From an uncultured Poribacteria bacterium (lineage in GTDB: Bacteria > Poribacteria > WGA-4E > WGA-3G): DNA of 64,000 bases. Position numbers and translations under genes: made by a program. Within the stretch, counting starts at the first letter, position 1, and each line of letters starts with the position of its first letter. Shown piece by piece: positions 32,657 to 48,778 of this stretch. The stretch lies in assembly GCA_951828385.1 (NCBI GenBank), contig OX639973.1, forward strand, positions 1,054,001 to 1,118,000, read 5' to 3'. Under the pieces are notes generated by a model that was not told the DNA's origin, did not search any database, and was given only the letters and a program-made list of their open reading frames with translations.

Positions 32657-34384
32657 ATGAAAGAAGAAACCATACCTGCCTTAACGCGCGGCACTGCTTT
32701 CCTGCTCACGCAACACTGCACAGACGGAAATTTTGAGGGAGAACTCTCTTCGAGTACGTTCCCCAGCTGTGCGTACGCTTGGATCCAACTTGCGCGAGGC
32801 GAGACTCCGGAACCTGCTCTGATCGAATGGTTTATCGAAAACCAGAACGCAGATGACGGATGGGGATTGGATACTGCGAACATATCAAACGTAGAAGCGA
32901 CCCGATTTGTGCGCTTGATTTTGGATCAAATTCACCAACGCGCGCCGGATCCGTCTCTCGAAAAACTGCTGGTATCTATCCCGAAATTCGCGCCGCATCT
33001 CGCCTTAGTCAAATTGGCGGACGCGGCTTTTGACCAATTTGATTGGAACGAACTGACCGTATCCGAAAACGCCCTACCTTTAATGAAATTAGCACGGCAA
33101 TTGACAAAGATACCATTCGTTGGCAGTCGATTGAAACCGCCGCGACATCGGCTGCCCCCTGTCGCGCTGTTCAACACGGCAATGTTTGACACGCTGTTCA
33201 TTGCTGAACAATATACACTTGTTCCTGTTTTCATCTTAATTGAACTGAATACCGCGAAACGTCCTGAAATGATCGCGGCACTGGTTGCTTGGCTGAAAAC
33301 ACATGTGCTCAGCGATGGCAGCTGGTTTCGGGTGAACTATATCACGGCGCTCTCAGTCTTAGCCCTCATTGAACTACAAGAGAAATGGGAAGCGGATGAA
33401 GAGATCGCCGAACTCATTGAACGCGGTATTGCTTGGCTCCACCAGACTCGAAATTCCGATGGTGGCTGTCGAGAGGCATTAAACCTCAACGTCTGGGACA
33501 CCGCGTTGAGCATCATCGCCCTCACAGAAGTGCAAGCGGCTGTACCTCAGAATGCTGACCTTACAGATAAAGTAAAATCTGCAGCACAGTGGCTTGTCAA
33601 ATATCAAAATGCGGATGGCGGATGGGCATTTTCCGGATTAGGTGATAGTAGCCTCCCAAGTGACGCGGACGATACAGCCCTCGGAACGCTCGCACTCATA
33701 CGCTCGCGCCGTGTAGATGGTTCCACGGATCATTCCACCTTGGACAACGCAATTCATCGCGGGATTGCTTGGTTAAAGACGCAACAAGTACGCGATGGTA
33801 GTTGGAGTACATATCAACCCGGACAAGGAGATGTTGGATGCGTTAGTATCACAGCCCATGCGATTGAGGCACTGCTGGCTTTTAGCGAAATTGAGGGTGC
33901 TGATAAATCGGATGTGGAAAGTGAAATGCAGCGGGGTATCAACTGGCTTCGCCGCCAAATCCATCGAGATGGCTATTGGCGGGACCTCTGGCTGGCAAAA
34001 GACACATACGGCACCGCGTGTGCTATCACCGCGCTTGTGAAAGTTGGTCTGAAAAACGTAGCAGAAGTTCAGCGGGGTGTTGAATGGTTAGAACGCAGCC
34101 AAAATGTGGATGGCGGTTGGGGGGAAGATATGTTCGGCAACCCGACGGGAAGCACAGTAGAACAGACGGCTTGGAGCAGTTATGCCCTCTTACAAGTGCA
34201 CCCCGAAAACCGTGCAGCGCAAAACGGCATAAAGTTTCTCCGCAAACATCAGCGGGAAGATGGCTCATGGCAAGAGCAGTGCGTCGGTATCTATTGGGAG
34301 ATTATTGGCGGATACGCGGACCCAATTTATGCATCTGTCTTTCCGATCCTTGCCCTGAATCAGTTCGCGCAAACATCCGCTTAG
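32657..34384 (+). CDS. Squalene-hopene-cyclase-like class II terpene cyclase
   Basis: 575 residues of alpha-alpha barrel repeats with many QW motifs (QNADDGWG 63-70, QNADGGWAF 317-325, QNVDGGWGED and HQREDGSWQE). The class II acid motif DADDTA (336-341) corresponds to DxDDTA of squalene-hopene cyclase. NVWDTALS (279-286) and the C-terminal SVFPILALNQF match SHC positions (xVWDTAL and VFPxLALGRY). It is shorter than SHC (about 630) and has no strong hydrophobic membrane patch that I can point to. It may cyclise squalene, a prenylated lipid or another polyprenyl chain. There is no ribosome site before the ATG. A TIGR04283-like glycosyltransferase follows 13 bases on. No squalene-synthesis genes are seen. 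Confidence 0.85.
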   Translation: MKEETIPALTRGTAFLLTQHCTDGNFEGELSSSTFPSCAYAWIQLARGETPEPALIEWFIENQNADDGWGLDTANISNVEATRFVRLILDQIHQRAPDPSLEKLLVSIPKFAPHLALVKLADAAFDQFDWNELTVSENALPLMKLARQLTKIPFVGSRLKPPRHRLPPVALFNTAMFDTLFIAEQYTLVPVFILIELNTAKRPEMIAALVAWLKTHVLSDGSWFRVNYITALSVLALIELQEKWEADEEIAELIERGIAWLHQTRNSDGGCREALNLNVWDTALSIIALTEVQAAVPQNADLTDKVKSAAQWLVKYQNADGGWAFSGLGDSSLPSDADDTALGTLALIRSRRVDGSTDHSTLDNAIHRGIAWLKTQQVRDGSWSTYQPGQGDVGCVSITAHAIEALLAFSEIEGADKSDVESEMQRGINWLRRQIHRDGYWRDLWLAKDTYGTACAITALVKVGLKNVAEVQRGVEWLERSQNVDGGWGEDMFGNPTGSTVEQTAWSSYALLQVHPENRAAQNGIKFLRKHQREDGSWQEQCVGIYWEIIGGYADPIYASVFPILALNQFAQTSA

Positions 34385-34397
34385 GTCGCGCCCGGCA

Positions 34398-35078
34398 ATG
34401 TCCCAGAAAATATCAATCATCATTCCAGTACTGAACGAAGCGAAGATTCTGGAGCGGACGCTCTCTCACCTTCAGTCTGAATTGGGAAGCCATGAACTCA
34501 TCATTGTAGATGGGGGAAGCACTGATGGCTCGGTTCATATCGCGGAAAAGTATGGAAAGGTCGTTACATCCGCACTCGGACGCGCGAAGCAGTTAAATGC
34601 AGGCGCAGCCGCTGCATCAGGCGACATTCTCATCTTCCTACACGCTGATATTTGGCTCGAGTCCGGGGCATTCGCCGCAGTAGAAACAGCACTCTCTTCG
34701 GGCTACGTCGGGGGCGGATTTCGTCAGAAAATTGATGGTAAAAACATTCTTTATCGTGCGATTGAGGTAGCGGGAAACATGCGCGGGAAATATCTGAAGG
34801 TGTTTTATGGAGATAGCGGTATTTTCCTAACGCGCACCGATTTCGAGAAGATCGGCGGCTTTCCTGAGATTCCAATCCTCGAAGAGATGGAATTTTCAAA
34901 AAATCTGTGCAAACTCGGCAAAACAAGGCTTGTTATCCCTCACATCCATATCTCTGCGCGGCGGTGGGAAACAAAAGGGATTGTCCGTACTACAATAAAT
35001 AACTGGCTGATAACGCTCCTCTATTTTCTTAAATTCTCACCGGAACAGCTTGCCAAACTCTACCGACATATCCGATAG
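34398..35078 (+). CDS. Glycosyltransferase family 2, TIGR04283-like
   Basis: 226 residues, GT-A fold: ISIIIPVLNEAKILERTL, ELIIVDGGSTDGSV (nucleotide-binding DGGS), GRAKQLNAGAAAASGDILIFLHADI (with the metal-site HAD motif), GGGFRQKID and a closing GDSGIFLTRTDFEKIGGFPEI with acceptor-site EEMEFSKNL. This matches the TIGR04283 subfamily, which often neighbours rSAM/selenodomain genes; none is here. It could glycosylate the cyclase product (hopanoid-type lipid), as the coding distance of 13 bases suggests an operon. That role is inference. Confidence 0.92.
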   Translation: MSQKISIIIPVLNEAKILERTLSHLQSELGSHELIIVDGGSTDGSVHIAEKYGKVVTSALGRAKQLNAGAAAASGDILIFLHADIWLESGAFAAVETALSSGYVGGGFRQKIDGKNILYRAIEVAGNMRGKYLKVFYGDSGIFLTRTDFEKIGGFPEIPILEEMEFSKNLCKLGKTRLVIPHIHISARRWETKGIVRTTINNWLITLLYFLKFSPEQLAKLYRHIR

Positions 35079-35212: not shown

Positions 35213-38152
35213 CTATTTGTCTGTTTCCTTCTCCATCTTCTCCTTCTCAGTAGTTCCGTTACTTTGCCAATCATCGGCTTTTTCCTTGAGTTTCTCAAGG
35301 TCATCAGGATTTTTGATGTCTACGATGTGCGGTGTGATGATGATCACAATCTCGGTATCTTCAATAGCGGTTTCGGTGCTTTTGAAGAGCCTACCGAGCA
35401 ACGGAATGTCGCCTAAGATTGGGAGTTTGCTTTCGACTTGCTTTTGCTTCTTACGAATGATACCCCCGACAACAATCTGTTGTCCATCTTCCACATCAAT
35501 ATAGACACTGATAGAGTTATCATCGGTAATAGGTGCATTGAAATCAGTAAATTCAATAAAATTGCTGGCACTGATGTTATTAATATCCAAGCCGATGGTG
35601 CGTTTACCGTCCGCGCTTGCCTGCGATTTAGCGATGTAAGGCGTGAGATCAATATTGATGCCCACGGGTGGATCGATAAAATCGTAGTTAAAGAGCGGTT
35701 GTGAGACAGCGTCTCCTAAAATACTGGTGGTATCAACGCTCTGGAGATATGGGATACGTCTGCCGCTACTCCACGTAGCACTCTGACTATCTCGTGTCAA
35801 AAGAGAGGGTGTCGAAAGGGTTTGCACCTTGTTTTCACGCATCAGCGTGTGGAGAAGTGCCATATATTCTTTGGTCGCCAGACCGAGGTTAAACCCTGAG
35901 ATTTCCTGATCAACTCCGAGTTTGCTATCGAGGTCGCCAATCAGCGGATTGCCGGGGACGGGAGATACACCGAAAAGTTTGTTCTCTTGCGCTGTGAGTT
36001 CAATACCGAGTTTAGTCGTCTCATCAAGGGTCACTTCAAGGATTTGAATATCTATCCAAACTTGTCCTCGGACGAAGTCTAACTGCTTGATGAGTGCCCT
36101 GACATCAGGAAGATACCGCTGGAGCGTCGTAATAATTAGGGTATTGGTATCACTTTCAGCGAAGACAGTAACTTTTCCACGCAAGGAGTTAATATCTTGC
36201 TGCTGTTGTCTGCCAGCATTCATAACAAAGAATCTAAAACTACTAAATCCACCATCATCTTCACCTTCCCAGACATCTTCAAGTACATCCTCAAGTGTCT
36301 CGGCATTTGCATACTCAAGCCGAATTGCTTCAGTGACCTCTTTTAGGTTCTCGGGTGTCGGGATATCCATGGACTTGATAAAATCTTCAATGAGCTGAAA
36401 GTTCCGCTGTGTAGCAGTCGAAATGATGATAGCATTCAGTGTAGGGTAGGGTTCAGCGGTGACATTGCCTGCTAATGAACCTTGCGTCTGATTGCGTTGA
36501 CCGCCTCGCGATAGATAATAGAAATCTCTATTATTTCCAGAACTCCCTTGATAGGTGTTATTGATGACAGCGGCGATATTTTCAGCATCGGCGTATTGGA
36601 GTCTATACATGCGGGTACCCCACTCCTGGTCCGGCATGCTGACATCAAGTTTCTCAATAAGGCTATCAATCGTTTCAAAGTTTTGGGAACTTGTTGAGAT
36701 AAGGATAGCGTTGAGGCGTATATCAGCGACAAGGTGCACCTCGCCTTGCACACCAAATCCGCCGCCGCCTTCAGAGGGTTCGCGGTATCTACGTTCCCAC
36801 CAAGGTCGATCTCTGTCCCGACCAGCACTACCGCCTTCAAAGAGATCCTGCAGGCTCGGTACGAGGTTTTCAGCATCCGCATGTTTGAGGAAATAGAGTC
36901 TAATCTCTTCCTGTGTCTGTTCCTGGTCAAGTTCTTGGACAACCTTCTCAATGATAGAGAAGTTACGTGGGTCTGAGGAAACGACGACGACATTGATCCG
37001 TTCGTTATGAGAGACATTGACGGTTCCGACAATACCTTCTTGGTCAAGTCCTTGTTCGCGTTGCCAGTTTCTTAATTTTGCGCGATCCCAAGCATCCATC
37101 CTACGGTTGTCGCGGCCACGTTCACCCGTGAGTACTTCCTGCAGGGTTTGTGCGACATCTTCGGCAGCTGCATAGTTAAGTCGGAAGGTACGTATCTGGA
37201 TTTGTGCGGTGGATGGCACATCAAGATCCTTAATGATCTCCCGCAAGAAAACTAAGTTTGCCTCAGAGGCTTTGAGGACGAGTGAATTGGAGTTGGTTTC
37301 AGGGATAATCTTTATCGTGCCATCAAGGACTTCGTAGCCGGTGCCGTCGGCCTTCATCTGTTCAGCTGCGGTTTTCGCCTCTTCCGCAGTCATACGGGTG
37401 CTGCCGTTATCAGATTGCCTTTCGTCGCGCCCGTCCTCTTCCCGAAAAATGTTTGTGAGCGCCTGCGCCAAACTATTAGCATCCGCAAAACCGAGCGGAT
37501 AAATGAGAATCTTTAAAGGAAATCTTTCACCTTCGTCAGCGACTTGTAGAATTGAAACGATGCGTCGTATATTGGAGGAGACATCTGTTATAATAAGCGA
37601 GTTTGTTGCGGTATCCGCGAAAATATGGGCTTGACTATTAAGGAGCGGTTTGAGACGATCCACGTGTTCTGAGGCAACAACGTTCGTCAATCGAATGATA
37701 TAAGTTTGAATCTCATCTGTCATATCAACGAGATTCGGGTCCGGTGTAATGCTTTTGACGATCCCTTTTGTTCTCATAGCGCGCGAGAAGGTTGTGACTA
37801 AGAGCGTGCTATCGGTTTGGATGAGGGTGAGATCGTATTGTGTCAGGACAGTTTTGATTTGCTCGACAACTTCTTCAATTGTCACATTTCTGAGATTAAT
37901 GAGGGAGAACTCTTTATCGCGAATGTCGTTTTCACTCGCGATAATAGTGAGGTCTGTTTCTCGTGAAAGCCATTCAAGAACGCCTTTGAGTTCCTGACTT
38001 GTAAAGTTAAAGTCAAAACGGATTGCGCGCCCTTCTTCGTCGGTCTGTGCGACGCGCATCGCCTCCTGCTGCTGAGCTTGCAGCTCAACAACGCCGGCGA
38101 TAAGTAATCCGAAACAGAGTAGCGAAATAATTAAGAATTTTTGTCCTTGCAT
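35213..38152 (-). CDS. gspD: Type II secretion secretin GspD, expanded N-domain form
   Basis: 979 residues from the ATG at 38152 (AAAGGAT upstream, and the signal peptide starts MQGQKFLIISLL); an earlier ATG at 38191 gives 13 more residues. Outer-membrane channel of the system. After the signal peptide come an N0-type domain (about 45-125), then six N1-type KH-like domains, recognisable by repeated starts such as IRTFRLNYAAAEDV, RLYFLKHADAENL, MYRLQYADAENI and AIRLEYANAETL, each closed by an LNAIIIST-type strand. The secretin barrel (about 690-940) has VQTLSTPSLLTRD, EDGQQIVVGGIIRKK and PILGDIPLLGRLFK. A typical GspD has N0 plus three such domains. It is the last gene of the operon, and a terminator follows. 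Confidence 0.93.
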   Translation of the reverse strand: MQGQKFLIISLLCFGLLIAGVVELQAQQQEAMRVAQTDEEGRAIRFDFNFTSQELKGVLEWLSRETDLTIIASENDIRDKEFSLINLRNVTIEEVVEQIKTVLTQYDLTLIQTDSTLLVTTFSRAMRTKGIVKSITPDPNLVDMTDEIQTYIIRLTNVVASEHVDRLKPLLNSQAHIFADTATNSLIITDVSSNIRRIVSILQVADEGERFPLKILIYPLGFADANSLAQALTNIFREEDGRDERQSDNGSTRMTAEEAKTAAEQMKADGTGYEVLDGTIKIIPETNSNSLVLKASEANLVFLREIIKDLDVPSTAQIQIRTFRLNYAAAEDVAQTLQEVLTGERGRDNRRMDAWDRAKLRNWQREQGLDQEGIVGTVNVSHNERINVVVVSSDPRNFSIIEKVVQELDQEQTQEEIRLYFLKHADAENLVPSLQDLFEGGSAGRDRDRPWWERRYREPSEGGGGFGVQGEVHLVADIRLNAILISTSSQNFETIDSLIEKLDVSMPDQEWGTRMYRLQYADAENIAAVINNTYQGSSGNNRDFYYLSRGGQRNQTQGSLAGNVTAEPYPTLNAIIISTATQRNFQLIEDFIKSMDIPTPENLKEVTEAIRLEYANAETLEDVLEDVWEGEDDGGFSSFRFFVMNAGRQQQQDINSLRGKVTVFAESDTNTLIITTLQRYLPDVRALIKQLDFVRGQVWIDIQILEVTLDETTKLGIELTAQENKLFGVSPVPGNPLIGDLDSKLGVDQEISGFNLGLATKEYMALLHTLMRENKVQTLSTPSLLTRDSQSATWSSGRRIPYLQSVDTTSILGDAVSQPLFNYDFIDPPVGINIDLTPYIAKSQASADGKRTIGLDINNISASNFIEFTDFNAPITDDNSISVYIDVEDGQQIVVGGIIRKKQKQVESKLPILGDIPLLGRLFKSTETAIEDTEIVIIITPHIVDIKNPDDLEKLKEKADDWQSNGTTEKEKMEKETDK

Positions 38153-38292: not shown

Positions 38293-39585
38293 TTAGAATA
38301 TTCGAGCGATAAGAAGTATATCAACATTCAAGTTTGTTGCGTCATCCCCGCCACGATTCCGACCGCGCGCCGCTCCGGCACCCGATCCCTGCTTATCAGC
38401 AGAGATCCGCAAATCGCGGACTATTAACCATTTAGCATCTGTTTCAATAAGACGGTTCAAGTTAACGAGTTTTTCGAGATCTGTTTTGAATTTCATTTCA
38501 ACGGTGTAAAGTTGCGTCTCGTAAGTTGGTGGTGCCAAAGCGAGTTTCTCTAAAAGGGTGGCACTCTGTTCCTGAATCTTTTCAATATACTTGACGAGTG
38601 CTGATTGAAGTTCACCTGTGTCTGCTGGTTCCTCATCATACGCATCCGGTGTTTTCATGAGAATATCCAAGAGTCCACTATCCTTTCGTAACTGGACCTC
38701 GACAGTAGCAGGTTTCGCGCCAATACCGAAGATACCGGGGGTAGCAGGGGCTCTAACTTTGAGCACTTGTGCTTCAAAGAAATCTTGCCTGAAATCTGTT
38801 GCGCCGCGAAGCTGCTGCGTCACCATGCTTTTAATATATCCTGCGAGTTTCGCACGAACAGTGAGCGGTATCGTCTCAGGCATTGAGACGAATTCCCATT
38901 GTGCTGCGGCGGCTATTGGGTTTGCTGATTCTGCTTTATCCATTGGCTCAGGTTTTTCCGTGGATAGTTCTGCTCCAGACGCTTCTTCTTCGTGTGTTTC
39001 TTCCACTTTTTCACCTGCGTCTGCCTCAGATTCTGTTCCAGTCAACCATGCGTCCATCAGCATATCAAATGTGTCCGCTTCTGCTGCCTGCTCTGCGATC
39101 TCTGTCAGTTCGTTTTCCTCTGCCTCTATATGTTTGAGATAGAGATAGAGGACAAGACGTTCACGATTTTGCATTGTTAATTTTTGGGTCTGTTTACCAG
39201 TGCCAGGTTTTGTCAGGAGTTGATAATTTTGCTGGATACCGGCGCGTTTAACCAGGGCATCAACGCGTGCGCGAATGACGGTCTCTGGAAGTTGCGTGTC
39301 AAAGAGCGTTGCAGCCCCTTGATTACCGCTCTGTGCTTGCTGTTCCTCTGTGCTTGCCAACCCGGTCGCTTTATAAATTTCGGACTCAATGGGTTTAAGT
39401 ACTTCGGCAGCATGTACCAAATTTTCAGCATTCAACAACTGTTCCTGTTTAACTGTGGCACCCTGATTCGCAAAGAGACGATAAAAGGCAGGAACGCCTT
39501 GTATGCCGATCAAAATCAGAAGCACTGCGCCCAAAATACCGAGCAGAATTTTGGTCCGCGGTGTTAATTGGAAATCCAATTCCAT
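38293..39585 (-). CDS. gspM: GspM/PilO-like inner-membrane assembly protein
   Basis: 430 residues. A short cytoplasmic start, one transmembrane helix (about 12-33), a coiled region and alternating alpha/beta periplasmic segments as in GspM/PilO. It is two to three times the usual size because of a Glu/Ala/Thr-rich, Lys-containing low-complexity linker (about 170-225). Position (after gspL, before gspD) supports the assignment more than sequence does. Ribosome site AGAGGAT. It should bind the PilN-like part of GspL at the inner-membrane platform. Confidence 0.7.
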   Translation of the reverse strand: MELDFQLTPRTKILLGILGAVLLILIGIQGVPAFYRLFANQGATVKQEQLLNAENLVHAAEVLKPIESEIYKATGLASTEEQQAQSGNQGAATLFDTQLPETVIRARVDALVKRAGIQQNYQLLTKPGTGKQTQKLTMQNRERLVLYLYLKHIEAEENELTEIAEQAAEADTFDMLMDAWLTGTESEADAGEKVEETHEEEASGAELSTEKPEPMDKAESANPIAAAAQWEFVSMPETIPLTVRAKLAGYIKSMVTQQLRGATDFRQDFFEAQVLKVRAPATPGIFGIGAKPATVEVQLRKDSGLLDILMKTPDAYDEEPADTGELQSALVKYIEKIQEQSATLLEKLALAPPTYETQLYTVEMKFKTDLEKLVNLNRLIETDAKWLIVRDLRISADKQGSGAGAARGRNRGGDDATNLNVDILLIARIF

Positions 39586-39635: not shown

Positions 39636-41417
39636 TTATTCTTCTTTTTCGATTTTTTCTTCAATTTCAAGATTTTTTGACGCAGGGGGTTCAACGGAGA
39701 ATTCTGCCTCTTTTTCTGGTTCATCAATCTGAGGATCGGGCATCGGATAGCGTTTCTTAGCGAATGCCCGCACAGCAGAAGCCGTTAAGTTACACCGTAC
39801 TTGGACTTGGAAAATCTGTTTTCTATTTTGAGAAATGGTTGTAACTTCACCTGGTCGAACATTGGTAAAAACCCCAGAACGATCCAGTGCTCCTAAAAGA
39901 CTATTTATAGCGTTATGGGAGGCGCCCTCCAAATTGAACGTAATGCGCGCTGTCTGAGGCGTATGGAGATTGGTAATATTGAAATTCGTCCAAGCGACCT
40001 GCGTTCTATCGCGAAACATCTCGCTGAGTACGTGTAAAATATCAAGCGGTGAGATATTATGTGCCAACATCTCAGTGAGCGCCAATTCCCGTCCCAGCTG
40101 CGCTTTTGCGGCTGCCACGGGTTGGGCGTATCCGGCGAGTTGTGCCTCTACGATTTCGGCTCTATGCTTTTGTGAACGTTGAAGGGTATAACCGCCAAAA
40201 AGGATGCCCCCAACGATCAAAATCCCCAACCCGGTAGTCGCAAAAATCTGGTGCTGCCGTGTTGTTTGCGTTAGCGTCTCGGCTGCCTCTTTTGGTAACA
40301 AGGAGACCTGGGGTGCCGGATTCAAAGCAGTAAGCCCAACGCCTAATGGCACAGCGAGGGTATCGCCCCATTCGTCAAGTAGTGCTTTGGCTTCCGCTCG
40401 CTCCGGGTCAATTTTAATAGCTGCCTGTTGTTCAATAGCCTGAAGTGGGTTCCATAAATACGTCGGAAGGTCAAGTTCCGCTTCCAAAGCCGTTGCGAGG
40501 TTAGGGACACGCGTACCACCGCCACATAACCAGAGTTCTGTCTCCGTTTCGGAGCGTGTGCCTTCGTGAGATATACCGGTTTCTTCCACTGTGCCAAGGT
40601 TATCCGAATCTCGATGTATAGTCGCAGCAGCAATAGAACGCTGAAGTTCACTAACCAACTCGGCTGTCCAGGTAGCAGTGGGTGCCTCATCCGCGGAGAT
40701 GTGCTGTTTTTCTTGTGCAGCCGCTTCACTGTCAACATCCAATGCGCGCCTGACCTGTTCAGATAGGTTGTCGCCGCCCAGCCGAAAACTTCTCGAAAAC
40801 TGAAGTGCACCGTCCTTAACGAAACAGAAATCTGTTTGCGCAGCACCGATGTCAACAATAAATGTCGGTTTGGTACATCCGCTGCGTGTTGCGACTTCAG
40901 CAATGGCTATCATTGAAGGCGTAACGCCTGATACAGAAACACCAATGTGCTCGAGGAGATCCATATAATTCGTGACCGACGCGCGACGGGTAGATATCAA
41001 TTCTACCGAAGTCGCGTCTGATGTCTGGCGCACATCGTGGTAAGTAAAGATTGCTTCGTCAACCCGAAAAGGCAGCTCTGCTTCTGCGGCGATCTCAACG
41101 ATATTCGCGAGTTGATCATCAGTTGCTGCAGGTAAGTTGGGTAAACGTTTTGTGCTGACCAAGGATCGCGGCAGCGCGAGAACGACTTCCGTCTTATTTC
41201 GGTTGAATAACGCACTTAAGTTCCGTTGCTTCGGCGGTTTTCCTAAGGATGCCCAAAGGTTTTCCATCGCTTTCGCCACCTGCTGTTGGTCACCCGTGTC
41301 AGCGTAGGTCACAATATCCGCGTTGATCAGCCGCGTTCCCGCAGATGACTGTTCAAGCTGAACCATTTTCGCTGTGTGTGTGCCGATATCTACCGCCACG
41401 ACTTGTTTTTTCGCCAT
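39636..41417 (-). CDS. gspL: GspL-type platform protein: PilM-like ATPase fold joined to PilN-like domain
   Basis: 593 residues. The cytoplasmic actin/PilM-like part (about 1-330) carries VAVDIGTHTAKMVQLE at the start and the phosphate-type motif FIVDIGAAQTDFCFV (about 183-197). A transmembrane helix (about 395-417, GLGILIVGGILFGGYTL) leads to a PilN-like periplasmic domain (about 420-545). A charged Glu-rich tail ends the protein. Type II GspL has the same layout. It links the GspE motor to GspM. The start at 41417 has an AGGAG about 18 bases upstream, weaker than for its neighbours. Confidence 0.87.
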   Translation of the reverse strand: MAKKQVVAVDIGTHTAKMVQLEQSSAGTRLINADIVTYADTGDQQQVAKAMENLWASLGKPPKQRNLSALFNRNKTEVVLALPRSLVSTKRLPNLPAATDDQLANIVEIAAEAELPFRVDEAIFTYHDVRQTSDATSVELISTRRASVTNYMDLLEHIGVSVSGVTPSMIAIAEVATRSGCTKPTFIVDIGAAQTDFCFVKDGALQFSRSFRLGGDNLSEQVRRALDVDSEAAAQEKQHISADEAPTATWTAELVSELQRSIAAATIHRDSDNLGTVEETGISHEGTRSETETELWLCGGGTRVPNLATALEAELDLPTYLWNPLQAIEQQAAIKIDPERAEAKALLDEWGDTLAVPLGVGLTALNPAPQVSLLPKEAAETLTQTTRQHQIFATTGLGILIVGGILFGGYTLQRSQKHRAEIVEAQLAGYAQPVAAAKAQLGRELALTEMLAHNISPLDILHVLSEMFRDRTQVAWTNFNITNLHTPQTARITFNLEGASHNAINSLLGALDRSGVFTNVRPGEVTTISQNRKQIFQVQVRCNLTASAVRAFAKKRYPMPDPQIDEPEKEAEFSVEPPASKNLEIEEKIEKEE

Positions 41418-41442: not shown

Positions 41443-43032
41443 CTAATCCTGTCTCCAGTGTTGGACGACAACTTGGTCGCCCGCCCTGTTAATGATGCCA
41501 ATACAGGTCGAGATAACTTTACCTGCAGCATCAACACCGTTTGCCTCAATACGATACCCGTGTGAACGGTAGGTTACCGAATCGACAACCTCACGAAACG
41601 TTTCAAAGTCAATCTCCTCAAGGTCTGAGAGTTGTGAAATGTTAGTGAAGGGATTTCCCTTTATCTCTTCATCAGTATAATTCTGTATCGGCGAATCGTC
41701 GGGTGGATCTTGTTCACGGCGTTCAACGATCGCCTGTGCTTTTTGCGAATCCATCCCGGGTAGCAGTGCTAAGATTTCAGCCGACGCGGTGTTTATGTTA
41801 ATAAGTCCGCTGCGGGTATCTCCATCTTTAAGGGTTATTTTATCGACGATCCCGATGAATTCCTGCTGCGTTAACAGTGTGACATCTTTAATAGCATCAA
41901 TGTTCTGAAAAATTCCTTGTGAGTCCCGATGATCGACGACACGTTGGGCAATCCCTTCGTCAATACCCTGCAAGGATTGCAAGGTATCGACATCGGCGGT
42001 ATTGATATTGACTTGCCCGTTTTCGTTTTGTTGTCCCTGTCCACCCCCTTGGCCCCGGGGGCCGTTTCCTTGATTGTCCGTTTCTCCATCGTCTTCATTC
42101 CCACCGGAATCTTCAGTGGTGATTTGGTCTTGGATGTTGTTAAAAAGATCATCGGAGACCGCTTTTACATCTATGAGCGCAGAAAATCTGTCAAATTCAC
42201 GTTGCTGAATCAGCGATTCCGCCTCCGCCTGTGAAAAAACAGATTGCCCCCCACCTTGACCGGATTGCGTCTCAATTTGCGTTAGTTGTTCTGCGTCCGC
42301 TGTATTGACATTCACAAGCGACTCGCCATTTGGATCGGTGCTTGCGTCAAGTGAATAGATGGTTGCTAAATCCACCAATCCGGGCTGCGCGTTTGTTTCG
42401 GTTGCTTGAAGGCTTCCACCCGCCGTTGTTGAAAGTCCGTCAACCGTGCCTGTAGGTGTGCTTTGTGTATTTGTACCGCCTTGTGTAAACGCCGCCGTTT
42501 GTTGCGTACCGTACAGAATTTGGGATGTCATCCCTTCGACCCGTGCGAGATCCCGAACGGTTCGGTACGGCTGCCCTTCTACAATACTGTTAGCAAGTTC
42601 CTGGGTGAGCGGCTCATCCGGCGAAGCCCCTACTTGCGCCAACAGATTAGTGATGAGTCCAGCATCGGCAGTATTGATATTAACCTTTGACGCTTCATCT
42701 GTGATGGTTACTTGATAGTTTAAGAAATTACCGGTCTGCACACCATCATCAACCTGTCCTTCAAGAGGTTCAGCCCAACTTTCACCGAGTGAATCGAAAG
42801 GGGTCTGATCTGTTCGCATAACAGCAAGCGTCCACTCAAAACCCGCCCTTGCGGCGTAGTGAAACTTTGCCCTATCCAAAAAATTGCGTTGGGTGCGCTG
42901 TTCGATATGGATAGAATAGAGCAGTTGCGCTGCCAAAATAGAGAGAATCGTAAGTATCCAGAGCGTTGAAACGAGGGATAAACCGCTCTGTTCTTTGTAA
43001 AATGTATAGGAAAATCGCTTTGTGAACAGCAT
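41443..43032 (-). CDS. gspK: Type II secretion minor pseudopilin GspK with repeated HhH motifs
   Basis: 529 residues. Pseudopilin start EQSGLSLVSTLWILTILSIL (about 14-33). The globular region contains four VNINTADA-type helix-hairpin-helix starts: VNINTADAGLI (114-124), VNVNTADAEQL, VNINTADVDTLQSLQGIDEGIAQRVVDHR and ININTASAEILALLPGMDSQKAQAIVERR. One or two are normal in GspK. A Gly/Gln-rich linker (about 310-340) separates the second from the third. GspK caps the pilus with GspI and GspJ; the repeated ComEA-like units could lengthen or strengthen the tip. The gene starts 3 bases after the gspJ stop. Confidence 0.9.
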   Translation of the reverse strand: MLFTKRFSYTFYKEQSGLSLVSTLWILTILSILAAQLLYSIHIEQRTQRNFLDRAKFHYAARAGFEWTLAVMRTDQTPFDSLGESWAEPLEGQVDDGVQTGNFLNYQVTITDEASKVNINTADAGLITNLLAQVGASPDEPLTQELANSIVEGQPYRTVRDLARVEGMTSQILYGTQQTAAFTQGGTNTQSTPTGTVDGLSTTAGGSLQATETNAQPGLVDLATIYSLDASTDPNGESLVNVNTADAEQLTQIETQSGQGGGQSVFSQAEAESLIQQREFDRFSALIDVKAVSDDLFNNIQDQITTEDSGGNEDDGETDNQGNGPRGQGGGQGQQNENGQVNINTADVDTLQSLQGIDEGIAQRVVDHRDSQGIFQNIDAIKDVTLLTQQEFIGIVDKITLKDGDTRSGLININTASAEILALLPGMDSQKAQAIVERREQDPPDDSPIQNYTDEEIKGNPFTNISQLSDLEEIDFETFREVVDSVTYRSHGYRIEANGVDAAGKVISTCIGIINRAGDQVVVQHWRQD

Positions 43033-43035
43033 CGC

Positions 43036-43968
43036 CTATTGCCCTCCCTGAGGTGCGCCTTCTGCACCGCCGCCGGCAGTGGCACTTGCTGGGAGATACA
43101 CCATCGTTGATTGGGTCATACTATTTGGGGGCATTACAGGTTGTTGACTTTGGGTCGCAAACTGTGTGGTATCTGTGCTTACGGCTCCTTGTACGTCTCC
43201 TTGGACAGTTATCAGGACTTGTACAGCACTCGGAAGACTTTCGGGGTCATCCCATGAGGCGTTCCACATCTCCGCCTCCGCATCAAAATATTGTAGATTG
43301 AAATTAGCGAGGCCTGTAATAAGCGTGGCAATGTCAACGTAAATTGGTTCCCCGTTTTCGTCTGTCTCTGGTACTGTGCCTGTCTGTAAGAAGGGACCGA
43401 TAACAACCTCTGGGTCAAGCACTGTGGTTGCGACGCGGAAGAGCGCATAACTGCCGTTCTGTTGGTCACTTGTACCTTCTGCAAAACCACCTTGGAAACT
43501 ACCTGAATTGAGAGCGGATTCACCGGGTTGAGGTTCCGCAGCGACAAAATATGCGACACGTTGAACGTCGCTCAGAAGTGGCATGGGAACTTGTGCGGCG
43601 TTTTGCGCTTGGAAACTTGAAAGCTGCGCCAAAAATGGATCGGGATCTGTCTTCACAAGTGTGACAAAACTTAGCATGTCTTGATCACCGGATTGACTGG
43701 GGCCATCTTGCGTGTACAGTGCGAGTTCGGGGTCTTCAAGTGAGACCTGTATATTTCCGAGATCCGTCACAATCCGATCCATAGCGAAACGGCATCTCTG
43801 TGCAGCTAATACGCGTGCTTCGGTCTGATGGTAGGCATCCACAGCTGTCTTGAAAGCGAAATAGGCTGACCCGCCGATGATCACAAGGATGCTAACTGCC
43901 ATGAGCATCTCAATGAGTGTCAACCCACTCTCGCTGTTTCTATGATCGGATATCTCTTGGATCTTCAT
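43036..43968 (-). CDS. gspJ: Type II secretion minor pseudopilin GspJ
   Basis: 310 residues from the ATG at 43968; a GTG at 43995 would add 9 residues. Prepilin leader ending at SESG, then LTLIEMLMAVSILVIIGGSAYFAFK. A beta-rich globular domain follows with a Gln/Pro/Ser-rich variable region near the C-terminus. Order I-J-K and the leader type define the family. Part of the tip complex. Confidence 0.88.
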   Translation of the reverse strand: MKIQEISDHRNSESGLTLIEMLMAVSILVIIGGSAYFAFKTAVDAYHQTEARVLAAQRCRFAMDRIVTDLGNIQVSLEDPELALYTQDGPSQSGDQDMLSFVTLVKTDPDPFLAQLSSFQAQNAAQVPMPLLSDVQRVAYFVAAEPQPGESALNSGSFQGGFAEGTSDQQNGSYALFRVATTVLDPEVVIGPFLQTGTVPETDENGEPIYVDIATLITGLANFNLQYFDAEAEMWNASWDDPESLPSAVQVLITVQGDVQGAVSTDTTQFATQSQQPVMPPNSMTQSTMVYLPASATAGGGAEGAPQGGQ

Positions 43969-44003
43969 GTTCGCGATGCCCCGTTGAAACGCCACAGCAG
44001 CGG

Positions 44004-44444
44004 TTATCGACCGCCACCGGACTGTTGTCCCTGCTGCGTTTCTGACTTTTGTCGGTCAGCGATATAGGTGTTCATAGACATAGAACGTTCTCGGTTTCTA
44101 TGCTGCCATGTGACGGTTACTTGAACCCGTCGGACGTTTTCAACTTCTTCAGAATCTATGTCCTCAACGATAGAACTCCAGGAGTAGCGTGTATTATCAC
44201 CGAATTCGCCTGTTTCCTCACCGACATCAGGGTAACCGCTCATCTCAATTTCTGCCATTCGAAATTTGAGGAGATAGAGTGCTGTGGTACTATTGTCTGA
44301 AAGTCCTTGGTTACGTGCAGCAGAAGCAAAGGCGTGCAAAAGCGCGGGGAGTACAGCCCCCAAAATTGCTAACGTTACGAGTATCTCAACGAGCGTAAAA
44401 CCGTTTTCTTCGGCTGACATCAAGCGTTTCATTGACAGTTTCAT
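44004..44444 (-). CDS. gspI: Type II secretion minor pseudopilin GspI
   Basis: 146 residues. Prepilin leader ending AEENG, then FTLVEILVTLAILGAVLPALLHAF, and a GspI-type C-terminus with NSTTALYLLKFRMAEIEMSG and VTVTWQHRNRERSM. The length is normal for the family (about 120-140). An alternative start four codons downstream (44432) is possible. It lies between gspH and gspJ. Confidence 0.92.
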   Translation of the reverse strand: MKLSMKRLMSAEENGFTLVEILVTLAILGAVLPALLHAFASAARNQGLSDNSTTALYLLKFRMAEIEMSGYPDVGEETGEFGDNTRYSWSSIVEDIDSEEVENVRRVQVTVTWQHRNRERSMSMNTYIADRQKSETQQGQQSGGGR

Positions 44445-44477: not shown

Positions 44478-45179
44478 TTAGTTTTGTGGTGTTTCAAACC
44501 CTAACGTTTCAACCTCTTCAGAAGCGAGTTGTTGCACGGTAACCCGTCCACTCGCGGTTTCAATAGCAATAGACATAATCTGATTCCGTGTGTTTTGGAG
44601 GTAGATGAGTGCCTCCTCGGAGGTTGCATTCGGTGAGAAATAGACGTACTCCACACCTGAATCAACTTGGACAGTCTGACCGTTGTGGTTGGTCATCATA
44701 GCGACTAATGTGACACCCTTCTCCATCGGATAAGGCACCCCTAAGATACCGCCCGTACGTGTCAACGTCTCCTGTTGCGCAGTATTTGTTGTTGTTATCG
44801 GATTCTGGGTTGTGTTAGTTGGGGATGCGGTCCCTACCGTAGAATTTTGGGCAGTAAGTGCCGACGTGAGTGGCGCGCTCGGGTTAAACGTCTCACTGGA
44901 TGCAAGCCAGCACCGCCCGTTGTCAAGATCAAAGACAACCAAGTGTGCCGCTCGGTCAGTGATTGCCATATCCCGTGCGAACGTCAGGAGGCTGCGGATT
45001 GTATAGGCGGATGCTTTGAGTCGGCGCGTTGCAGCGAACCCTTTCAGCGTCGGCATAGAGATTGCTGACAATATGCCGATAAGGGTCAAGACGATCAATA
45101 ACTCTGTGATCGTGAAACCACTTTGGGATTGAGAGGTAGGCGAGGTCCGAAGAACTCGCCTATCCGTCGTTTGTCTCAT
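44478..45179 (-). CDS. gspH: Type II secretion pseudopilin GspH-like
   Basis: 233 residues from the ATG at 45179, five bases after the gspG stop. The frame stays open 264 bases further upstream, but that part overlaps gspG and has no pilin features. Leader ends at SQSG, then FTITELLIVLTLIGILSAISMPTLKGF, and a GspH/FimT globular domain with DMAITDRAAHLVVFDLDNGRCWLAS. A Thr/Gln-rich insert (NTTQNPITTTNTAQQE) lies in the middle. Confidence 0.88.
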   Translation of the reverse strand: MRQTTDRRVLRTSPTSQSQSGFTITELLIVLTLIGILSAISMPTLKGFAATRRLKASAYTIRSLLTFARDMAITDRAAHLVVFDLDNGRCWLASSETFNPSAPLTSALTAQNSTVGTASPTNTTQNPITTTNTAQQETLTRTGGILGVPYPMEKGVTLVAMMTNHNGQTVQVDSGVEYVYFSPNATSEEALIYLQNTRNQIMSIAIETASGRVTVQQLASEEVETLGFETPQN

Positions 45180-45183
45180 CGTT

Positions 45184-45639
45184 TTAATAGGCTGCGGATG
45201 TCTCTTCAACCCAATTGGTGATGTCGGCATCCAGTTCAGTCCCACCCACCTTGCCATCTTTCCCCATTGAATAGAGGTCATAGTCGTAGCCGTAATGGGT
45301 GCCGGGTTGCCGATAGACGTACTGGTTACCCCACGGATCTTCAAAACTTGGACTACCAATATACGGACCATCCCAGTTAGGTGGTGCCGGACTCGGTGCC
45401 CGCCACAATGCATCCAATCCTTGTTCCGTTGTCGGATATTCACCGATTGCTATTGCATACTGTTCCAACGCGGTTTTGAGACCGCTGATTTCTGTTTGTG
45501 CCTTCGAGACTTTCGCTTGCTGCGGCGCATTTATGACCCGCGGCGCAATGAAGGCTGCTAAAATCCCCAAAATAACAATAACAATCGTTAGTTCAATTAG
45601 CGTTAATCCGGATTCATCGGATTTGAGTTGCGTGAACAT
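45184..45639 (-). CDS. gspG: Type II secretion major pseudopilin GspG
   Basis: 151 residues. Leader ends at DESG, then LTLIELTIVIVILGILAAFIAPRV, with Leu at +1 where Phe is commoner but the +5 Glu intact. The type II calcium-site and DPWGN region EDPWGNQYVYRQPGTHYGYDYDLYSMGKDGKVGG is present, as in all GspG proteins. Major subunit of the periplasmic pseudopilus. It requires a prepilin peptidase (GspO), which is not in this window. Confidence 0.95.
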   Translation of the reverse strand: MFTQLKSDESGLTLIELTIVIVILGILAAFIAPRVINAPQQAKVSKAQTEISGLKTALEQYAIAIGEYPTTEQGLDALWRAPSPAPPNWDGPYIGSPSFEDPWGNQYVYRQPGTHYGYDYDLYSMGKDGKVGGTELDADITNWVEETSAAY

Positions 45640-45699: not shown

Positions 45700-46926
45700 T
45701 TAACCACTTAGTAACTGGTTCGCCTCGAAAATTGGGAGTATCATAGCAACAGCGATAAACCCAATGACCACTCCCATCATTAGAATGACGAGAGGGCCGA
45801 TAGAACTTGTTAAGCGTTCGAGGCTCTTTTTTATTTCTAAATCGTAGTAGTCAGAAAGTTTACCGAGCATGTGAACCGGTTCACCGGACTCCTCACCGAC
45901 AGCCACCATGTGGGTAACGAATTCAGGGAAATCCTTGCTTTTACCGAGTTCGCGAGAGAGTGTAGAACCCTGTTCGACCTCTATTTCTGCTTCGGCGATG
46001 ACATTGCTGTACACCTTGTTTCCGATCGTGTCCTTGACGACCTCAAGGGCAGGCAGCATGCGTACACCATTTTCCAAAAGTGTTGCCATCGTTCGGGTAA
46101 AGCGGACAACGGCAAAAGTGCTGAATATGGGTCCCATGAGTGGCAATTTGAGTTTCAACCGGTCAAACCAGACTTTGCCGGTTTCAAGCCGGAGGTATTG
46201 TCTTAAGCCAACCGCGCCTACGATGAAAATGGCAAGTGCCACCCACCAATAGGCCTGGAAAGCATCAGTCGTCCCAATGAGAATTCGCGTTGGCAGCGGC
46301 AATTCGACACCGAGGTCGTTGAACATTGCCGTGAATTTCGGTATGACGAGAATCATAAGTACGACAACAGCAGAAATGCTGAGCGTCAATAGGATAATAG
46401 GATAAAAGAGTGCTGAGATAACATCGTTTTTGAGGATTCTTTGGCGTTCTGCGAATTCTGCGAGACGTTCGAGGACTAAACCGAGTACACCGCCGCTCAC
46501 ACCCGCCTTCACCATGTTAATGTAGAGGTCCGAAAAAGCCTTCGGGTGTTGGGAGAGCGAGTCGTGAAAAGTTGCGCCGTGTTCAACATCATAAGCGACT
46601 TGGGAGACGATACGGTTAAGCGCGGGATTCTGAATCTGTCCGAGGGTAACTTCCAAAGCACGCCGTAGTGGGACATGTGCATTCACGAGTGTCGCTAACT
46701 GATAGGTGAAGAATTCAACGTCTGTCGCTTTAACACGACCGCGCCCAAATTTAAGCCATTTTCGGACATCCGATGGTGCGTCTTGCTCTGTCTCCTCAAC
46801 GATATCGGTTGGCCAATACCCCATCTGCCGTAACCGGGAGATAAGTTCGGCTTTAGAGTCAGCCTCGAGTGTATTTTTTACGCTACCACCGCCATGCGTA
46901 AGTGCTTCATATCGGAATAACGGCAT
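45700..46926 (-). CDS. gspF: Type II secretion inner-membrane platform protein GspF
   Basis: 408 residues, the normal length. It has two GspF domains (about 75-200 and 280-400) with the typical VDVEFFTYQLATLV, MVKAGVSGGVLGLVLERLAEF and FTRTMATLLENGVRMLPALEVV, and three transmembrane segments (about 170-195, 225-245 and 375-400). It interacts with GspE to drive pseudopilus assembly. The N-terminus (residues 1-57) carries the regulatory YEALTHGGGSVKNTLEAD part. Confidence 0.95.
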   Translation of the reverse strand: MPLFRYEALTHGGGSVKNTLEADSKAELISRLRQMGYWPTDIVEETEQDAPSDVRKWLKFGRGRVKATDVEFFTYQLATLVNAHVPLRRALEVTLGQIQNPALNRIVSQVAYDVEHGATFHDSLSQHPKAFSDLYINMVKAGVSGGVLGLVLERLAEFAERQRILKNDVISALFYPIILLTLSISAVVVLMILVIPKFTAMFNDLGVELPLPTRILIGTTDAFQAYWWVALAIFIVGAVGLRQYLRLETGKVWFDRLKLKLPLMGPIFSTFAVVRFTRTMATLLENGVRMLPALEVVKDTIGNKVYSNVIAEAEIEVEQGSTLSRELGKSKDFPEFVTHMVAVGEESGEPVHMLGKLSDYYDLEIKKSLERLTSSIGPLVILMMGVVIGFIAVAMILPIFEANQLLSG

Positions 46927-46984: not shown

Positions 46985-48778
46985 TTAGACAACTTCTCCA
47001 AAATCAAATTCATCTTCCTGCGTTAACCGGATAACCTCGTTAACAGTTGTCCAGCCAGCAGCAACTTTGCGCCACCCATCTTCACGTAAACCTCTCATGC
47101 CCAATTGTACTGCAAGGCGACGAATCTCATTTGTCGATGCATGTTTAAGAGCCATTGCGCGAAGTTCATCAGTCATAAGTAAAACTTCAAAAAGACCGAT
47201 TCTACCCCTGTAACCTCTGCCGCGACACTCCTTGCATCCGCTTCCGACGACTGCCCGCGGAATCTCAAGGTTCTGAGGAATAGCGACATTGTTACCATTA
47301 CCGTTACCGTTATGACCGTTACCCATAAGTCCCACCAATTCATCCTTATCAGGGGAATACATCTCACAACACGCCTTGCAGACTCGACGGGCAAGCCGCT
47401 GCGCTATAATGCCTTCCACTGTGGAGGCAACAAGATAGGGTTCAACGTCCATATCAATAAGCCGCGTGATAGCCCCCGGTGCATCGTTTGTATGGAGTGT
47501 GCTAAAGACAAGGTGTCCAGTCAGTGACGTGTGGACCGCCATCTCTGCGGTTTCGTAGTCGCGTATCTCACCGATTAGGACTTTATCTGGGTCCTGACGC
47601 AAGATATGACGGAGCCCAACGGCGAAAGTGAATTCAATATCAGGGTTCACCTGGATTTGGTTGATACCCTCTAATTCATACTCAACAGGGTCTTCAAGGG
47701 TGATGATTTTAACATCGGGTGAGTTGATCTCTTTCAGACAAGCATAGAGTGACGTTGTCTTTCCGCTACCCGTAGGACCGGTGGCAAGAATAATGCCGTG
47801 GGGTTTGCGTATCATGCGTTCAAAGAGCTGAAGATTATCTTCAGTTAATCCGAGTTCCGCGAGCCCAAAGTCGATAGACTGCCGGTCCAGGATACGGAGA
47901 ACAACACTTTCGCCGTGAAGCATTGCGACAGTAGGGACAGTGGAAACTCGAAGGTCTATTTGTCGGTTCCCGACGCTACCAATCCGCCTACTGATTTTTC
48001 CGTCTTGGGGCCGTCTCCGTTCCGCAACATCCATTTCTGCCATGATTTTGATACGAGAGGTGATAGCGGATTGTAAATAGGCAGGCGGTTGGGGTTGATC
48101 CTCAAGTACACCGTCAACGCGAAATCGGATTTTGAGTTGTGTTGGATAGGGTTCAATATGGATATCACTCGCCCCCATCCGGACAGCATCAATAATCATC
48201 TGGTCAACGGCGTGGATGACTGTCGGATCTTGGCTGAGATCTTTCTCATCAATACCGAAGTCTTCAATGGTCTCACGTTCAAGGGTCTCGGTAGCACCGA
48301 CGGGTCCCTTGATACCCGCACTGAGAAGGCTCTCAGCGGTACGCCCATAGAGACGAATAATTGCCTCATCGATGTCTGCCTCATCAGCAAGTACAGGGAT
48401 AACGCGACAATTTGTGATAAGTTCAATTTCGTCGATGAGAACGACATCCAATGCATCTGCCATTGCGACGGTAAGTTCATCGCCATTTAGATCAATCGGA
48501 ACGACTTTATTGCGGTATGCAAACCCGGGAGACACCTTCTCAAGAGTGTCAGGTTCCGGGGCAACGGCTTCCAATTGGACGAGAGGTGTCCGGAATTCGA
48601 CACTCCTTGCCGCAAGTGTGAGGATGTCAGGTGACACACCATGCTTGGAAAGCACAGCGGTTTCAGATGCGCCAGTCTCTTCTATTTCTGTAACGATGTC
48701 TGTATAGTCTTGATCGGAGAGCAGAGATGCTTGTCGCATCACCTCAACAATCGAAGCTGTATTTTGTGTATTTTGCAT
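46985..48778 (-). CDS. gspE: Type II secretion ATPase GspE
   Basis: 597 residues. N1/N2 domains (about 1-150) followed by the hexameric ATPase: DPTVIHAVDQMIIDAVRMGASDIHIEP, arginine-finger region RRRPQDGKISRR, Walker A GPTGSGKTTSLYACL (about 343-357), Asp box ITLEDPVEYELEGINQIQVN, Walker B ILRQDPDKVLIGEIRDYETA and His box GHLVFSTLHTNDA. The zinc-binding tetracysteine CKACCEMY...CKECRGRG is present with a Gly/Asn low-complexity insert (NGHNGNGNGNN) between its halves. First gene of the operon. Confidence 0.97.
   Translation of the reverse strand: MQNTQNTASIVEVMRQASLLSDQDYTDIVTEIEETGASETAVLSKHGVSPDILTLAARSVEFRTPLVQLEAVAPEPDTLEKVSPGFAYRNKVVPIDLNGDELTVAMADALDVVLIDEIELITNCRVIPVLADEADIDEAIIRLYGRTAESLLSAGIKGPVGATETLERETIEDFGIDEKDLSQDPTVIHAVDQMIIDAVRMGASDIHIEPYPTQLKIRFRVDGVLEDQPQPPAYLQSAITSRIKIMAEMDVAERRRPQDGKISRRIGSVGNRQIDLRVSTVPTVAMLHGESVVLRILDRQSIDFGLAELGLTEDNLQLFERMIRKPHGIILATGPTGSGKTTSLYACLKEINSPDVKIITLEDPVEYELEGINQIQVNPDIEFTFAVGLRHILRQDPDKVLIGEIRDYETAEMAVHTSLTGHLVFSTLHTNDAPGAITRLIDMDVEPYLVASTVEGIIAQRLARRVCKACCEMYSPDKDELVGLMGNGHNGNGNGNNVAIPQNLEIPRAVVGSGCKECRGRGYRGRIGLFEVLLMTDELRAMALKHASTNEIRRLAVQLGMRGLREDGWRKVAAGWTTVNEVIRLTQEDEFDFGEVV

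Follow-up and report, generated by a model that had tools for sequence, protein, structure and literature searches.

A GspD-type secretin with six N1-type domains in the type II secretion cluster of Poribacteria

Does a secretin gene from an uncultured Poribacteria bacterium encode six N1-type domains and, if so, to which machine does the protein belong and what would the extension do? The gene lies in a 64,000-nucleotide stretch of contig OX639973.1 (assembly GCA_951828385.1; hereafter, the window), which is G000:C1:1054001-1118000 in a host genome that is a single contig of 6.66 Mb. It is a gspD-like secretin frame at 35213..38152 on the minus strand, encoding 979 amino acids (aa) from its ATG (992 aa from a TTG start 39 bases upstream), with a signal-peptide-like stretch, recognized by eye, at the N-terminus. 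An earlier note, made from the sequence alone, had counted six N1-type repeats after an N0-type region, against three in known GspD secretins, and suggested that they lengthen the periplasmic tunnel by roughly three rings, matching a wider periplasm or replacing a missing GspC. The reading that we favor, at a probability of roughly 0.72, is that the protein is GspD, the outer membrane secretin of the poribacterial type II secretion system (T2SS), with N0 and six N1-type domains fixed across the sampled phylum, and that three duplicated domains add three rings, giving a longer, seven-ring channel. Three N1-type domains are treated throughout as usual for GspD, not as defining it.

Domain content of the secretin and its spread in Poribacteria

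Pfam identified six Secretin_N stretches in the 979-aa protein (235.5 bits for the whole protein, E 4.3e-71) and one Secretin domain (PF00263, 118.6 bits). In a Pfam search of the genome, each of the six exceeded the curated cut-off of 28.2 bits by itself (56.7, 51.5, 45.1, 41.8, 41.6, and 35.8 bits). An AlphaFold2 model built on a 24-row alignment (mean predicted local distance difference test score [pLDDT] 62.1; predicted template modelling score [pTM] 0.32) placed N0 at about aa 38-124, followed by six beta-alpha-beta-beta-alpha units (aa 148-205, 214-310, 319-408, 415-502, 512-595, and 605-694) and then the secretin domain. Within the N-domain units, pLDDT was mostly 70-85, and the values that were largely below 50 fell in the alpha1-beta2 loops inside the domains, so the outcome of three N domains with disordered inserts did not occur. 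The repeat count of the earlier note is therefore upheld by domain prediction and structure prediction, with N0 below its Pfam cut-off and recognized by its fold. Specifically, the predicted N0 matched the solved N0 domains 4jtm (Z 8.2, root-mean-square deviation [rmsd] 3.0 over 80 residues) and 4ar0 (Z 8.4, rmsd 3.3 over 84), and the top fold matches to the whole model by Foldseek and VIA-align were GspD, ExeD, XcpQ, and PulD (5zdh, E 5.6e-20 by Foldseek; 6i1x, Z 10.5, rmsd 19.4 over 389 residues by VIA-align). The parts of the gene, with the evidence for each, are as follows.

35213..38152, minus strand: gspD-like secretin with signal peptide, N0, six N1-type domains, and secretin domain (open reading frame, Pfam, TIGR02517, AlphaFold)
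37781..38041, minus strand: N0, aa 38-124 (fold match to solved N0; Pfam N0 model below cut-off)
37526..37717, minus strand: D1, aa 146-209, corresponding to N1 (Secretin_N 35.8 bits; groups with N1 of Escherichia coli and Omnitrophota)
37214..37516, minus strand: D2, aa 213-313, placed with the N2 domains of a four-N1 paralog and the Omnitrophota secretin (Secretin_N 41.8 bits; tree)
36920..37201, minus strand: D3, extra N1-type domain, aa 318-411 (Secretin_N 56.7 bits; D3-D5 clade)
36638..36913, minus strand: D4, extra N1-type domain, aa 414-505 (Secretin_N 45.1 bits; D3-D5 clade)
36737..36835, minus strand: loop between alpha1 and beta2 of D4 (aa 440-472), carrying a WW pair that is almost invariant (84/85 rows, 36/37 representatives)
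36356..36622, minus strand: D5, extra N1-type domain, aa 511-599 (Secretin_N 51.5 bits; loops; tree)
36461-36547, minus strand: D5 loop, with FFFF, YYYYRYY, or WWW-type motifs across the family (loop comparison)
36071..36343, minus strand: D6, membrane-proximal N1-type domain, aa 604-694, probably N3 (Secretin_N 41.6 bits; match to E. coli N3 of 22.5 bits, the highest among D2-D6)
36170-36265, minus strand: D6 loop, with F-rich motifs (loop comparison)
35318..36064, minus strand: secretin (C) domain, aa 697-945 (PF00263 118.6 bits; GspD folds)

Pfam and a secretin search found no second Secretin_N or Secretin gene in the genome, which leaves the 979-aa protein as the sole secretin found there. 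The secretin was present in all 40 relatives searched (partial, at a contig end, in G037), and a scan of genome contigs with two short peptide patterns, an approach that favors close relatives, yielded 72 secretin-aligned loci, 71 from Poribacteria and one from Omnitrophota, the two phyla surveyed for domain number. A domain hidden Markov model (HMM), built from the six domains of the window-type secretin, counted six domains in each poribacterial family frame that reaches 930 aa (116 frames plus the window, 84 of the 116 distinct, since many loci and contigs carry identical sequence). The HMM splits D1 in L038, L105, L080, one frame of L086, and the cut frames L111 and L122, and each split pair was counted once; the cut frames L111, L112, L120, L122, and one of L103, and the own-genome sub-loci L001-L006 and L037, stand outside the count. 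Pfam gave six Secretin_N domains in each of the five family proteins run, the window's included, and three N1-type domains in E. coli GspD, of which the domain HMM recovers two. By the domain HMM, there are three N1-type domains in the Omnitrophota relative (L125) and four in a second type of poribacterial secretin, about 810 aa long (L045-L047; in L045 also by Pfam). Secretin_N was found in 58/58 Omnitrophota genomes, with no frame above three among the matches listed. A tblastn search of plasmids matched 601 records. The matches were to common GspD and similar secretins, and none of them reached 80% coverage of the query.

Two further observations concern poribacterial secretins. Six-domain secretin genes stand as tandem pairs in L084, L085, L086, L088, L090, L092, L094, L095, L096, L097, and L100, and also in L103, where one copy is cut. 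In addition, a secretin at L049:445-2982 carries AMIN, a pilus-type N domain, and four BON stretches that replace Secretin_N.

The gene cluster and the GspC-like proteins

The secretin passed the GspD equivalog model of NCBIfam (TIGR02517, 384.8 bits against a cut-off of 351.35) and failed the PilQ model (TIGR02515, 196.8 bits against 284.35); the remaining secretin models were also below their cut-offs. Upstream on the same strand lie T2SS genes in the order M-like, PilM-type (GspL-like), GspK, J, I, H, G, F, and E, among which the E, F, G, K, and PilM genes pass their Pfam cut-offs.

38293..39585, minus strand: M-like inner-membrane protein of 430 aa where GspM would be expected (assigned by position; no Pfam family reaches its cut-off)
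39636..41417, minus strand: GspL-like protein, PilM domain with a weak PilN behind it (PilM_2 82.4 bits; PilN 18.7 bits, cut-off 22.8)
41443..43032, minus strand: GspK-like minor pseudopilin (T2SSK 76.1 bits)
43036..43995, minus strand: GspJ-like pseudopilin (N_methyl; TIGR01711 34.8 bits, below cut-off)
44004..44444, minus strand: GspI-like pseudopilin (TIGR01707 42.1 bits, cut-off 44.35)
44478..45443, minus strand: GspH-like pseudopilin, true start probably further inside (N_methyl at aa 106-129; TIGR01708 36.6 bits, below cut-off)
45184..45639, minus strand: GspG major pseudopilin (T2SSG 128.7 bits)
45700..46926, minus strand: GspF (T2SSF 196.1 bits)
46985..48778, minus strand: GspE ATPase with MshEN domain (T2SSE 426.2 bits, MshEN 73.7 bits)

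Relatives of the M-like protein in L166 and L170 gave T2SSM_b 12.8 and T2SSM 17.1 bits, below cut-off. On the other side of the secretin, a 575-aa frame (32657-34384) with repeated QNxDGGW-like motifs, seen by eye, looks like a member of the terpene/hopene cyclase family, and a glycosyltransferase-like frame lies beside it (34398-35078); both are kept next to the secretin in a relative, G009 (L173).

A pilus or DNA-uptake channel resembling Thermus PilQ, instead of a T2SS secretin, is a competing assignment. It draws on the ring number of Thermus PilQ, the nearest known (PMC5745081, in excerpt), and on the cluster itself, which holds a PilM-type protein and an MshEN-type ATPase whose frame scores about equally with the PilB and GspE models (below cut-off for both), as well as ComEA-type helix-hairpin-helix repeats, in the form of four HHH_3 stretches, within the GspK-like protein (41443-43032). 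We consider it unlikely, given the outcome of the GspD and PilQ models and the presence of a T2SSG major pseudopilin with a GspH-K set. Further, no separate PilT was found in the genome: TIGR01420 (PilT family) matches only the GspE frame, below cut-off, which makes a retracting pilus unlikely.

One observation fits the idea that the extra domains stand in for a missing GspC: an HR HMM found no gspC-like gene near the secretin in the window's cluster. Proteins with a GspC-like HR domain are nonetheless encoded elsewhere in the same genome. PF11356 gave two weak matches there (24.8 and 22.7 bits), to proteins of 154 and 155 aa that combine a hydrophobic segment at the N-terminus with an HR-like region, and the family as a whole gave 14 match rows (some being two pieces of one gene), with up to 18 in relatives and at least one member in 40/40 relatives. 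A longer member of about 280-300 aa, whose own-genome copy is at L159:3953-4792 on the minus strand (G000:C1:2441952-2442791), was modeled by AlphaFold with a helix at residues 4-40 and a six-stranded HR domain at 123-185 (pLDDT about 78-96 there). For this model, the top VIA-align matches were to GspC, PilP, and allied domains of the HR type (3oss_C, GspC: Z 9.6, rmsd 1.7 over 61 of 65 residues); Foldseek placed it against 3oss_C at E 0.011, with no match at E 0.001 or better. Sequence searches against the PDB were weak, a phmmer search with one whole HR protein returning only an unrelated antibody chain and a 31-row HR profile matching GspC 3oss_C best, at E 0.15; the GspC likeness thus rests on the fold match. 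PilP (PF04351) had no match in the genome, a result made uninformative by control genomes that gave none either.

The order gspC-gspD is the usual one, and an HR gene, identified by the HR HMM, lies directly upstream of the six-domain secretin in eight Poribacteria among the 72 loci (L093, L110, L114, L115, L117, L119, L122, and L124), as well as upstream of the secretin in L170 and in the Omnitrophota L125. The remaining loci, the window included, show no HR gene directly upstream of the secretin, although some hold too little upstream sequence to reveal one. In L166, L167, and L170, the HR gene sits between the M-like gene and the secretin; in L171, it is flanked by the PilM-type gene and the secretin (L166, L167, and L171 duplicate the contigs of L093, L122, and L124). 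Hence, six N1-type domains and a GspC-like protein coexist, both within the window's genome and side by side in relatives, and the HR gene seems to have moved away from the secretin in the window's lineage. We therefore reject the earlier note's proposal that the extension replaces GspC, which now appears highly improbable.

Short GspC-like copies occur, for example, at G000:C1 3606923-3607387, 3391520-3391963, 5174340-5174762, 1384605-1385105, and 2626644-2626925 (L127, L128, and L160-L162). In L160-L162, other membrane or secreted-looking frames lie, by eye, upstream of the HR gene in a cassette-like arrangement. These short copies may serve as adaptors to specific exported proteins.

Origin of the extra domains and the proposed channel

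In a domain-core tree (100 rows, 61 columns, 15 representatives; bootstrap not settled), each of D1-D6 forms its own group over the 15 representatives, so the duplications predate the split of the sampled Poribacteria, with no loss since in the representatives. D3-D5 form one clade (support 95/87) near N3-type domains, D1 groups with N1 of other secretins, and D2 clusters with the N2 domains of the four-N1 paralog and the Omnitrophota secretin; E. coli N2 is placed beside the D1 group. D6, which outscores D2-D5 against E. coli N3 (22.5 bits), probably corresponds to N3 on sequence grounds. The simplest reading of these sequence relationships is that D3, D4, and D5 are three ancient extra units, giving the order N0-N1-N2-three extra-N3-secretin, and that they probably arose when an N3-like unit was duplicated, ahead of the divergence of the sampled Poribacteria.

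In solved secretins, N1-type domains form rings (PMC5745081 and PMC6882859, in excerpt); by analogy, each N domain of the secretin multimer would contribute one ring, so that seven periplasmic rings would be expected instead of four. PulD, as described in the available part of PMC6882859, has four N rings, is 20 nm long, and has its N0 bound by the HR domain of PulC; Thermus PilQ, in the available part of PMC5745081, has six rings (N0-N5), is 35 nm long, and is described as reaching across most of a wide periplasm. The poribacterial channel would similarly reach further from the outer membrane toward the inner-membrane platform, its N0 ring presumably bound to a GspC-like protein through the latter's HR domain, as happens in Klebsiella PulD-PulC. 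In the modeled GspC-like protein, about 80 residues separate the helix from the HR domain, which suggests that the secretin supplies the additional reach. A secretin ring is roughly 2.5-3 nm high, and three rings more than in PulD would add some 7-9 nm. The extra length may match a wider envelope gap, and a wider periplasm in Poribacteria is plausible; a microscopy paper on Poribacteria (PMC5087111, in excerpt) states no periplasm width in that excerpt. The tunnel extension suggested in the earlier note thus stands in its domains, three of the N1 type beyond the usual number, while the added length itself is proposed by analogy with Thermus PilQ.

The three extra domains might instead serve as a flexible tether or bind peptidoglycan and form no rings at all, as the low pTM and the Arg-rich loops could suggest. 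We regard this as quite unlikely, because the N1-type domains of solved secretins form rings and because D3-D5 are each predicted to be compact and are conserved over the phylum. Several observations do weigh against the seven-ring GspD that we favor. N0 scored 12.2 bits with Pfam against a cut-off of 27; the GspJ, GspI, GspH, and M-like assignments are below curated family cut-offs; and the HR proteins fall short of the curated GspC models (PF11356, best 26.0 against 27; NF041515, 27.2 against 150), for which reason they are named GspC-like only. Because the HR family is multi-copy, the T2SS partner is not pinned to one gene. At a pTM of 0.32, the placement of the protein's domains relative to each other is not predicted, and in the tree, beyond the unsettled bootstrap, the link of D6 to N3 is weak.

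Set against its nearest counterparts, the protein resembles GspD, PulD, and XcpQ (TIGR02517) in its N0, N1-type, and secretin domains, its T2SS cluster, and its best fold and sequence matches, and differs from them in having six N1-type domains versus three, loops in D3-D6 that are rich in aromatic residues, Arg, and Gly, and a length of about 980-1000 aa versus about 650. With Thermus thermophilus PilQ it shares an extended stack of beta-alpha-beta-beta-alpha rings, as predicted here, and long extra loops; PilQ, however, has five domains after N0, 757 aa, and a role in type IV pili and DNA uptake, and the poribacterial protein is below the PilQ model cut-off. The paralog of about 810 aa (L045-L047) comes from the same phylum, is GspD-like, and likewise has loops rich in Gly, Phe, and Arg, but it has four N1-type domains, and no second secretin was found in the window's genome. 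The Omnitrophota L125 shares the T2SS cluster, with its HR gene directly upstream of the secretin, and differs in its three N1-type domains and in loops that lack aromatic clusters.

Aromatic loops and implications for export

The alpha1-beta2 loops of D2-D6 are 24-45 residues long, and their composition was compared over 37 representatives with less than 85% identity (motif rows, n=85). Aromatic residues make up 0.113, 0.131, and 0.135 of the D4, D5, and D6 loops versus 0.070 of the whole protein, and Gly makes up 0.155-0.214 versus 0.059. Lys is depleted there (0.000-0.032 versus 0.045 overall; nearly nil in D4 and D5), and Arg reaches 0.196 in the D3 loop versus 0.058. A WW pair in the D4 loop is kept in 84/85 rows (36/37 representatives), and adjacent aromatics occur in the D4, D5, and D6 loops of 36/37, 35/37, and 30/37 representatives versus 14-15% of random stretches of the same length. 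They occur in the D3 loop of 8/37 and the D2 loop of 1/37. In D5, the chemistry is kept where the letters vary (FFFF, YYYYRYY, WWW), and the matching loops of E. coli GspD and L125 have no aromatic cluster. The four-N1 paralog (L045-L047) has GGF- and RGG-rich loops, reminiscent of FG-repeat proteins.

These loops raise the possibility of a multi-gate sieve, in which those of D3-D6 would enter the lumen as successive constrictions or a hydrophobic mesh that lets folded cargo or the pseudopilus pass and stops other molecules. The loops of D3-D6 sit at the position of the GspD N3 loop; PulD has an unresolved loop at residues 288-303 and constriction sites in its N3 ring (PMC6882859, in excerpt), two features that may coincide. 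Thermus PilQ has a second gate built of long loops between N0 and N1 (PMC5745081, in excerpt). The near-invariant WW, the excess of aromatic pairs in D4-D6 over random stretches, the conserved chemistry in D5, and the depletion of Lys also argue for such a role. Conversely, the D2 loop is almost devoid of aromatic pairs and the D3 loop has them only in part, and, because pLDDT in the loops is mostly below 50, the model does not fix their direction: they may face the lumen, as the sieve supposes, or outward toward peptidoglycan, or pack between rings. We thus hold the sieve to be possible and somewhat doubtful. A more far-reaching version, in which lumen-facing aromatic, Gly, and Arg loops of D4-D6 (and partly D3) turn the seven-ring conduit into a Phe/Trp/Tyr mesh over several storeys, like the FG mesh of the nuclear pore and selective for matching cargo or the pseudopilus, instead of one single gate, is a long shot; if it held, the 810-aa paralog with its GGF-rich loops would represent another form of that principle.

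Variable N-domain number in secretins (PMC8563730, in excerpt) and the six-ring PilQ are already known, and the statement that known secretins have three N1-type domains accordingly holds for GspD and fails for secretins at large, Thermus PilQ having six rings, N0-N5 (PMC5745081, in excerpt). A GspD with six N1-type domains, or a poribacterial secretin, was not found described in searches of open-access full texts. The six-domain GspD is real, phylum-wide, and structurally notable, and its mechanism is mainly an extension of a known one.

For Poribacteria, many exported proteins have been predicted and their export route has been called open, a single-cell study reporting no Por structural genes (PMC3909097, in its available part). 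In the window's genome, the type IX sorting domain TIGR04183 gave 62 matches, 61 of them over cut-off. An SprA-like type IX candidate was unconvincing, with a partial SprA_N match of 22-23.8 bits, below cut-off, in a frame that also matches CBM and dockerin weakly. The single T2SS is a candidate export route for the TIGR04183 proteins. The conserved aromatic loops of its secretin raise the question of several barriers in series within one channel. More generally, the number of secretin rings has been taken to be matched to the width of the envelope, Thermus PilQ marking the long end of the range; a phylum with seven predicted T2SS rings is a second, independent case of a long secretin, one that makes testable both the relation of secretin length to periplasm width and the site at which GspC attaches to a longer channel.

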